Assembly: GCF_001006325.2 (NCBI RefSeq)
Contig: NZ_LBIA02000001.1
Span: 3,349,501 to 3,413,500 of the forward strand
Source of the DNA: Afipia massiliensis
Lineage (GTDB): Bacteria > Pseudomonadota > Alphaproteobacteria > Rhizobiales > Xanthobacteraceae
Length of the DNA: 64,000 bases
Direction of reading: 5' to 3'
The position numbers were made by a program, and so were the translations under genes. The first letter of the stretch is position 1, and the number at the start of each line of letters is the position of its first letter. A model generated the notes under the pieces. That model searched no databases. It was not told the DNA's origin and saw only the letters and a list, made by a program, of their open reading frames with translations. Shown in pieces: positions 17,312-50,382 of the stretch.

Positions 17312-17905
17312 ACATCGTTAACGCGATGATGCCGGGCGCGCGCTGCGAGCTTGCGCGCGTTCTCCGGTCATCTCGTTTTGGGTTTTCGATGCGACGATGA
17401 GTGCGCGGCATCGCCGCGCCGACGACGAAAACCTCTCGCGACGTGGAATCGATTTGCGAATCAGATTCGCAAAAGCGTCCGGAAAAGTTCTCCGGCGCGA
17501 GCGCTGATCGCGCCAAAAGCAAATTTTCCAGAAAATATTTTTGTTGCCAAAATTTGCGACTCAGAGTCCGCGAAGCGCACTTTTTTCCAATCGCGGAGTT
17601 ATCCGCGGTTTTAAAGGCGTTGCGATGCGCGTTGTATCGCGATGAAAGAAACCACTGCGGCACAGGCGTTTCTTTGATGCGTGATGTTGCGTCGCTCAGG
17701 CGTTTCGTACGCGCGATGCAGTGTCACGCAGAGGCGTTGCAACGCTTCCGTTTCGTGTTTGCAGCGCGCGCTGCGCCTTGTGCGTAAACACTTCCTTAAG
17801 CGGGACACTGTTTTTTTGAGTGCGTTGGTGTAATCCAGATGAAGTGCATTTCGATTCCCGAGTGCACACAGCGATTAAGCCATCTCACGAACTTAGGAGG
17901 GCAAC
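17312..17905. other. 594-base gap between gatB and the lysine-rich gene
   Basis: I see no supported gene. The gap is AT-richer in parts (around 17500-17600) and holds five GANTC sites between 17446 and 17568, including the palindrome GCGAATCAGATTCGC at 17456-17470 and a similar GCGACTCAGAGTC at 17556-17568. The 3' part from about 17600 presumably carries the promoter and leader of the small gene at 17906. Confidence 0.6.
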
Positions 17906-47693: not shown

Positions 47694-48206
47694 ATGATCA
47701 AAGCCGCCGCTACGGCAGTTGAACCTGCTCGCGACAACGCCGCTGCACCTGTGCAGCCGCTTTATCTCGAAGCTCTTACGCTGGTCGAACGTCTGCATCG
47801 CCGTCTGCTCGACGTCATCAAGGACGAATTCGATCGTCGCGGCCGCGCCGATATCAATTCGGTGCAGGCTCTGCTGCTCTATAACATCGGCGACAAGGAA
47901 TTGACCGCCGGCGAACTGCGTACGCGCGGCTACTACCTCGGCTCCAACGTTTCGTACAATCTGAAGAAGCTTGTCGAGATGGGCTTCCTCGATCATCAGC
48001 GCTCGCGCGTTGATCGCCGCTCGGTCCGGATTCGTCTGACCGCGCAGGGCCAGGAAATCCGCCACATTGTCGACGCGCTGTATCAGAAGCACGTCAAGAC
48101 GGTGGAGCAGGTGGGAGGCATCTCGAACGCCGAGTTCGCGACGCTGAACAAGTCGCTGCATCGCCTCGAGCGCTTCTGGACCGACCAGATCCTGTATCGG
48201 CTCTGA
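47694..48206 (+). CDS. ldtR: MarR-family regulator LdtR
   Basis: A 170-residue winged-helix regulator nearly identical in its core to LdtR, the activator of L,D-transpeptidase and osmotic stress genes described in Liberibacter and Sinorhizobium. Seen: LLLYNIGDKELTAGELRTRG, the recognition helix YYLGSNVSYNLKKLVEMGF and the wing with RSRVDRRSVRIRLT. The N-terminal 20 residues are Ala/Pro-rich and variable. It is preceded by an AT-rich 300-base region and is transcribed alone. No L,D-transpeptidase gene is in the window. Confidence 0.92.
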   Translation: MIKAAATAVEPARDNAAAPVQPLYLEALTLVERLHRRLLDVIKDEFDRRGRADINSVQALLLYNIGDKELTAGELRTRGYYLGSNVSYNLKKLVEMGFLDHQRSRVDRRSVRIRLTAQGQEIRHIVDALYQKHVKTVEQVGGISNAEFATLNKSLHRLERFWTDQILYRL

Positions 48207-48382: not shown

Positions 48383-48420
48383 TTAGAGCGCGATCAGCAC
48401 ATTTGCTGATCGCGCTCTAA
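48383..48420. repeat. Perfect 17-bp inverted repeat after ldtR
   Basis: TTAGAGCGCGATCAGCA and its exact complement are separated by four bases, followed by AATTATT. It is strong enough to end transcription, although it lies 177 bases after the ldtR stop. A weaker pair (GCGCATGATC, GATCATGCGC) follows within 60 bases. Confidence 0.85.
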
Positions 48421-48516: not shown

Positions 48517-48624
48517 GAATCGACTCGTAAACGAGTCCTGAATCCTCGGGCTCAAGAGGCAAAAATATCGCCCGAGACTCTTGCGCGGACTCTTTCCATC
48601 ATCCTCAAATCATGAGGCCGATTC
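48517..48624. promoter_or_regulatory. Cluster of seven GANTC sites
   Basis: GANTC occurs at 48517, 48522, 48533, 48540, 48576, 48588 and 48620. The middle pair forms GACTCGT-AA-ACGAGTC, and CTCGGGC/GCCCGAG arms surround the space between the groups. GANTC is the methylation site of CcrM, the cell-cycle methylase of alphaproteobacteria. Random expectation at even base composition is one per 256 bases. Confidence 0.7.
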
Positions 48625-48719
48625 TCAAATTCGCCGGCGACCGGCTGCAGGTCGCGTTAATGCTCGTTCTGCTGGCCGCGTGCTCGCTGAACGTGATGTT
48701 CCTTTACGCGCGGCTGTAG
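48612..48719 (+). CDS. Possible 35-residue single-span membrane protein
   Basis: The frame reads [13 protein letters not shown] then a hydrophobic segment ([18 protein letters not shown]) and ends ARL. One span with positive residues at the N-terminal side is a typical small membrane protein. The start is ATG 48612; the ribosome-binding site is weak (no clear GGAG). It lies directly behind a dense GANTC cluster. Too short to be sure that it is translated. Confidence 0.45.
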
Positions 48720-49080: not shown

Positions 49081-50382
49081 ATGAGCTCATCTGCCAAGAC
49101 TGCTTCCGCTCCCGACTCGTTTTTCACGGCCTCGCTCGCGCAGGCCGACCCTGAGATCGCAAATGCGATCAAGGGTGAGCTCGGTCGCCAGCAGCATGAG
49201 ATCGAACTGATCGCATCGGAGAACATCGTTAGCCGCGCCGTTCTCGAGGCGCAGGGCTCGGTGATGACCAACAAGTACGCGGAAGGCTATCCGGGCGCGC
49301 GCTACTACGGTGGATGCGAGTTCGTGGACGTCGCAGAGAATCTCGCCATCGAGCGCGCCAAGAAGCTGTTCGGCGCGGGCTTTGCCAACGTGCAACCGAA
49401 TTCCGGCAGCCAGATGAACCAGGCAGTGTTCCTCGCGCTGTTGCAGCCCGGCGATACCTTCATGGGTCTCGACCTCGCTGCGGGTGGCCATCTCACCCAC
49501 GGCGCGCCGGTCAACATGTCCGGCAAGTGGTTCAAGCCGGCGCATTACACCGTGCGCCGCGAAGACCAGATCATCGATATGGATGCGGTGGCGAAACAGG
49601 CGGAAGAGATCAGGCCGAAGCTGATCATCGCCGGCGGCTCGGCCTATTCGCGTGCGTGGGACTTCAAGCGTTTCCGCGAAATCGCCGACAGCATCGGCGC
49701 CTACCTGATGGTGGACATGGCACATTTCGCCGGCCTCGTTGCCGGTGGCGTGCATGCCTCGCCGGTACCGTACGCGCACGTCACCACGACGACGACGCAC
49801 AAGTCGCTGCGCGGGCCGCGCGGTGGCTTGATCCTCAGCAACGACGAGGCGATCGCCAAGAAGCTGAACTCGGCGATCTTCCCCGGCCTGCAGGGCGGCC
49901 CGCTGATGCACGTGATTGCAGCCAAGGCTGTCGCATTCAAGGAAGCGTTGCAGCCGGACTTCAAGATCTACGCCAAGAACGTGGTCGAGAACGCCAGGGC
50001 GCTCGCGGAAACGCTGCGCTCCAACGGTTTCGAGATCGTGTCCGGCGGCACCGACAATCACCTGATGCTGGTCGATCTACGGCCGAAGGGTCTCAAGGGC
50101 AACGTGTCCGAGAAGGCGCTGGTTCGCGCCGGCCTCACCTGCAACAAGAACGGCATCCCGTTCGACCCCGAAAAGCCGTTCGTGACTTCGGGGCTTCGCC
50201 TCGGCACCCCGGCTGCGACCACGCGCGGCTTCGGCGTCGCCGAATTCAAGCAGGTCGGTGCGCTGATTTCGGAAGTGCTCAACGCCGTCGCCCAGTCGGG
50301 TGAAGGTTCGGCACCTCTGGTCGAGGCATCGGTGAAGGAGAAGGTGAAGGAACTCACCAACCGCTTCCCGATTTACCAGTAA
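49081..50382 (+). CDS. glyA: Serine hydroxymethyltransferase
   Basis: GlyA converts serine and tetrahydrofolate to glycine and methylene-tetrahydrofolate, the main one-carbon source. The 433-residue PLP enzyme has [26 protein letters not shown], the PLP Lys in [17 protein letters not shown], and [14 protein letters not shown]. The start is ATG 49081 (MSSSAKTAS). nrdR follows after nine bases, then the rib genes, the common glyA-nrdR-ribD order in alphaproteobacteria. Confidence 0.98.

Follow-up and report, generated by a model that had tools for sequence, protein, structure and literature searches.

In Afipia massiliensis, seven copies of the CcrM target GANTC are crowded directly upstream of a gene for a tiny membrane protein, and this cluster belongs to an element that relatives keep together with such a gene at independent loci. 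We favour, with moderate confidence, the reading that the element is a promoter which CcrM methylates and GcrA probably reads, and that it would drive a previously unrecognised microprotein family.

The cluster was analysed within a 64-kb stretch of DNA (the window). An earlier note on this stretch had counted seven GANTC sites within 48517-48624, far above a chance rate of one per 256. The count and all positions were exact and so was the judgement that chance is far exceeded, whereas the quoted rate was overstated; the real one is about one per 410-450 bp, and therefore the cluster is more unusual than first claimed. The window avoids GANTC (143 sites against a shuffle mean of 337), and seven sites in 108 bp arose in 0 of 20,000 uniform placements with 143 sites and in 0.7% with 337 sites. 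Among the remaining 15 palindromic 5-mers of the GANTC type, not one showed comparable clustering relative to its own frequency. GANTC clusters were also ranked at the level of the genome (4.495 Mb, a single contig), by means of pattern scans together with a 300-kb sample taken elsewhere in it. The sample contained 2.4 GANTC per kb, and the densest 108-bp stretch held two to four sites in each of its fifteen 20-kb pieces. A genome-wide triplet scan identified the four GANTC in 28 bp at 48517-48544 as the tightest run of four in the 4.495 Mb. Similar clusters were not frequent in these scans or in the sample, and the cluster stood up to this check.

Only one other cluster, the second-best in the genome, comes close: at C1:1883598-1883657 (L253), 60 bp hold six GANTC. 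It is intergenic and lies some 190 bp ahead of a long ORF (helicase-like) that carries a GPTNTGKT nucleotide-binding motif, and two further GANTC lie nearby at 1883774 and 1883782. Within the window, positions 17446-17568 hold five GANTC in 123 bp, including GAATCGATTTGCGAATCAGATTC, on the 3' side of a gatB-like gene (ORF end 17311).

The cluster sits in the spacer between ldtR and an ORF that we take to be glyA, immediately before a 35-codon ORF (Table 1). Between ldtR and the cluster, the segment 48383-48480 holds two inverted repeats, one perfect over 17 bp, probably a terminator or repeat element, and one of 10 bp (GCGCATGATC/GATCATGCGC); both resemble dispersed repeats and vary among relatives.

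Table 1. Features of the ldtR-glyA interval, in window coordinates
Feature	Position	Strand	Description
ldtR, upstream gene	47694..48206	+	MarR-type regulator; NCBIfam NF047395, 286.5 bits against a cutoff of 250
Inverted repeat after ldtR	48383..48420		Perfect, 17 bp; not part of the cluster
GANTC starts in cluster	48517, 48522, 48533, 48540, 48576, 48588, 48620		Seven sites within 48517..48624
Slot A, upstream GANTC pair	48517..48526		GAATC 48517-48521 and GACTC 48522-48526
Operator-like core GTAAACGAGTCCTGAATC	48527..48544	+	Slot B GAGTC 48533-48537; slot C GAATC 48540-48544
Spacer, 16 nt	48545..48560	+	Sequence variable; always 16 or 5 nt in relatives
AAAAATA	48561..48567	+	Putative -10-like element; conserved in 40 aligned elements
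Slot D, GACTC	48576..48580	+	8 nt after AAAATA; invariant in 54/54 elements; probably near the transcription start
Slot E, GACTC	48588..48592	+	Follows slot D by 7-8 nt; relatives have GACTC, GAGTC or GAATC
Tiny gene	48612..48719	+	35-aa one-helix membrane protein; directly downstream of the cluster
Slot F, GATTC	48620..48624	+	Falls within codons 3-5 of the tiny gene
ORF downstream of tiny gene	49081..50382	+	ORF translation; presumably glyA (serine hydroxymethyltransferase)

The elements share an architecture of GTAAACGAgTCcTGAATC, 5 or 16 nt, AAAATA, 8 nt and GACTC, in which GTAAACGA...TGAATC, AAAATA and GACTC are invariant among the aligned elements, and each element contains four to nine GANTC sites. 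No sigma-70 -35/-10 consensus pair was found at the element; AAAATA is conserved at a fixed phase and may act as a -10. A fixed -35/-10 pair was ruled out, given that TGAATC and AAAATA are either 5 or 16 nt apart. The inverted pair GACTCGT-AA-ACGAGTC described earlier is present at 48522-48537. Most relatives, although not all, retain its left arm, which is changed in the congeners L113, L114, L118, L128 and L159 and absent in most other genera. Thus, the pair was rejected as an essential feature, the left arm not being conserved outside the genus. In one congener (L126:1282-1537, minus strand), the middle base is swapped in both arms (GAGTCGTAAACGACTC), with the palindrome and both GANTC retained.

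Conservation inside the genus, to which named Afipia belong, was examined in 29 genomes. In Afipia relatives whose loci were fetched with LdtR, the cluster occurs at identical spacing; its absence from close relatives, which had been considered as a possible objection, was thus not observed. With up to two mismatches, the 21-mer core GANTCGACTCGTAAACGAGTC was detected in 23 of the 29 genomes, whereas the genomes sampled from 46 other genera contained no match. Even when three mismatches were allowed, it was found once in its own genome, which rules out a many-target operator (regulon). Among the 23 congeneric loci, two of 18 core columns change, by one step each, and parsimony steps per column amount to 0-1 across the core of the element versus 7-9 in the flanks. 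GANTC middle bases show a mean of 1.3 steps versus 0.6 at the other four positions. GATTC at the fourth codon of the tiny gene needs ATT for Ile; this codon (slot F) is ATT in all 23 congeneric ORFs, although neighbouring genes use ATT for only 18 of their 87 Ile codons.

Beyond the genus, a profile of the element built from sequence alone matched 76 of 297 genomes of the family and 14 of 47 sampled genera, mostly at other loci, such as next to an outer-membrane beta-barrel gene. In an order-wide search of 397 genomes, all occurrences of the element fell within this family; its absence elsewhere is provisional, as the filters lose weak matches. Although the extraction pattern permitted spacers of 3-20 and 4-9 nt, every one of the 54 distinct elements extracted from 12 genera had exactly 5 or 16 nt, followed by 8 nt to GACTC. 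The two spacings, both of which are present within genus g3, differ by 11 nt, or one helical turn; this rule argues for a protein bound on one DNA face relative to the -10-like AAAATA. The earlier proposals that the cluster is promoter-like and flanks a small membrane gene have gained support: the gene is real, and relatives retain element and gene together at independent loci. A second, weaker copy with four GANTC was also noticed in the same genome at C1:3157905-3157982 (L188), where a 13-codon ORF overlaps GATTC and is followed by a hydrophobic ORF of 24 aa that starts with GTG, divergent to a gene with a beta-lactamase fold.

Because the profile had been trained on GANTC-containing sequence, GANTC was tested outside the recognised core. 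The 30 bp upstream carried 43.6 GANTC per kb and the 60 bp downstream 25.6 per kb, compared with a density of 3.9 per kb in these loci. This is a 7-11 fold enrichment outside the aligned core, in sites whose middle base is free and whose positions shift. In 53 of 54 elements, the 30 bp ahead of the core include at least one GANTC, at positions that differ between genera. All four middle bases are seen upstream (slot A), and three each in slots B and E; only 39 of the 54 elements have a GANTC in slot B. Slots C and D, on the other hand, keep a fixed middle base (GAATC in C, once AAATC; always GACTC in D), so that a sequence-specific contact is also likely there, unlike at a plain methylation site.

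The putative output of the element is a tiny membrane protein that is conserved in 33 aligned relatives, with C24 and N27 invariant. Its ORF has a dN/dS of about 0.36 and is most variable at third codon positions, a pattern of purifying selection. AlphaFold predicted a single helix over residues 3-34 (mean pLDDT 82), and no Pfam or NCBIfam family matched above cutoff. Almost every element is followed by a hydrophobic ORF of 24-44 aa with one helix and a C-x-x-N motif, while the second copies in Afipia encode a protein without Cys. Because many members contain a lipobox-like LAAC, the product is possibly a tiny lipopeptide. CydX-like small single-helix membrane proteins are similar in size and in having one hydrophobic helix; however, the NCBIfam match of one member was weak (E 0.25, below any cutoff), the family has C-x-x-N, and no cyd genes were seen adjoining the tiny gene. 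At two loci of genus g43 (L020:2515 and L162:488), the protein is extended at the C-terminus to 97 and 89 aa, with promoter and helix kept.

The genome encodes a full-length CcrM (PDB 6pbd, E 1.6e-154) and GcrA (PF07750, 199.5 bits). It has been reported that GcrA is a sigma-2 cofactor on methylated promoters (PMC7403470). At ctrA P1, it protects -35 to +7 when this promoter is fully methylated, and on the hemimethylated plus strand it covers the -35 and its GANTC together with a weaker stretch from +5 (PMC3667746). These contacts resemble slots C and D of the element. A CcrM/GcrA-timed promoter is favoured because this known action fits slots C and D on either side of AAAATA and because both genes are present. 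In such a mechanism, the GANTC cluster would be a conserved promoter/operator controlling the microprotein gene. CcrM would methylate its four to nine sites once per cell cycle, and after replication these would be hemimethylated. The methylated GANTC would be recognised by a reader protein, for which the sigma-70 cofactor GcrA is the most likely candidate. Acting together with a second sequence-specific contact at GTAAACGAg...TGAATC, this reader would recruit polymerase to the weak -10-like AAAATA, and the tiny membrane protein would be made in a replication-linked pulse.

Known GcrA/CcrM promoters (Caulobacter ctrA P1, mipZ, podJ and tipF) likewise have GANTC in an alphaproteobacterial promoter region, with CcrM and GcrA present. 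However, published examples contain one to three GANTC (one in ctrA P1, two in mipZ and three in the CCNA_00697 region; PMC3667746) compared with four to nine here, and they differ from this element in its fixed second motif, helical spacing rule and putative microprotein output. The GcrA-activated motif YGAKTCK, a Caulobacter motif (quoted in PMC7987155), fits three of the seven sites on one strand (48517, 48522 and 48620) and not the invariant slots C and D; Brevundimonas has no preference of this kind (PMC7987155). The poor fit to YGAKTCK, the fixed middle bases of slots C and D, the incomplete presence of GANTC in slot B and the lack of a standard sigma-70 promoter in the scan count against the favoured reading.

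The strongest rival, which we regard as unlikely though still deserving serious weight, is that an ordinary transcription factor, with an OmpR-family regulator as candidate, would bind the element as a conserved operator, in which GA-N-TC words would occur by chance and methylation would be incidental. The invariance of GTAAACGAG...TGAATC beyond GANTC, the fixed middle bases of slots C and D, GTTAAC in some genera and the one-turn spacer change expected for a bound activator all agree with it. Moreover, TAAAC-N6-TGAAT (TTAAC-N6-TGAAT in some genera) forms an 11-bp repeat as in CtrA-type TTAAC-N6-TTAAC. The resemblance to CtrA operators (TTAA-N7-TTAA) thus covers the repeat period and, in some genera, a TTAAC half-site, but the match to the consensus is imperfect (7-8 of 10, judged by eye): the window has TAAA-N7-TGAA and some genera TTAA-N7-TGAA (by eye), with a conserved CGAG between the halves, which is non-standard. 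An ordinary operator also leaves unexplained the extra GANTC, with any middle base and at shifting positions upstream and downstream, and the GATTC retained inside the coding start.

An occlusion switch appears improbable. In this scheme, a MucR-type repressor would cover the sites in S phase and keep them unmethylated, and methylation on release would open the promoter. MucR does occlude GANTC at Caulobacter promoters, one of which (CCNA_00169) resembles the element in carrying several sites, in its case four (PMC5172544). However, these promoters have no motif or gene in common with the element, and no consensus MucR motif is known (PMC7987155). Even less credible is a role of the conserved segment at the RNA level, as a structured 5' leader in which the inverted pair would be a hairpin. 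A GACTCG-TAAA-CGAGTC stem could form, G136 (L126) swaps both arms, and pairing in L114 and L118 could survive via G-U. Against this, the fold z-score is only -1.15 and the covariation term -0.06, the segment has no Rfam match, other genera lose the left arm, and the exact one-turn spacing suits DNA rather than RNA. Chance clustering or a local repeat, with nothing in its favour beyond the small size of the region, is practically negligible, having already been refuted by conservation across genera at different loci.

To our knowledge, a dense phased CcrM-site array and a tiny membrane protein family have not previously been linked, and little is known of GcrA/CcrM targets in Bradyrhizobium, Rhodopseudomonas and relatives. 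Methylation-sensitive GANTC promoters as such are already known; the combination of a dense phased array, a fixed second motif and a dedicated microprotein family was not found in the libraries or literature searched. A search on the core string returned only unrelated papers, and the main text of two Bradyrhizobium transcript/sORF papers (PMC5082802, PMC4842269) contains no mention of GANTC, CcrM, CtrA or the tiny protein. As a tentative extension, which we hold with clearly less confidence than the promoter itself, the element may represent a family-specific class of methylation-site array promoters (Afipia-Bradyrhizobium-Rhodopseudomonas), in which the number of CcrM sites would serve as a replication clock for a dedicated membrane microprotein family. 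The alphaproteobacterial cell cycle would then have a new output in these membrane microproteins.

Judged from the sequence, the tiny gene may thus be switched by the cell-cycle methylation system. If methylation controls the element, it would be a compact system, replicated by nature, in which to test how the number and spacing of sites turn hemimethylation into timed transcription, and it would indicate a membrane factor linked to the cell cycle in Bradyrhizobium, Rhodopseudomonas and relatives. Should methylation play no part, there would still be a conserved promoter with a microprotein family across a dozen genera, a family that is missing from curated libraries and whose gene standard annotation probably overlooks.
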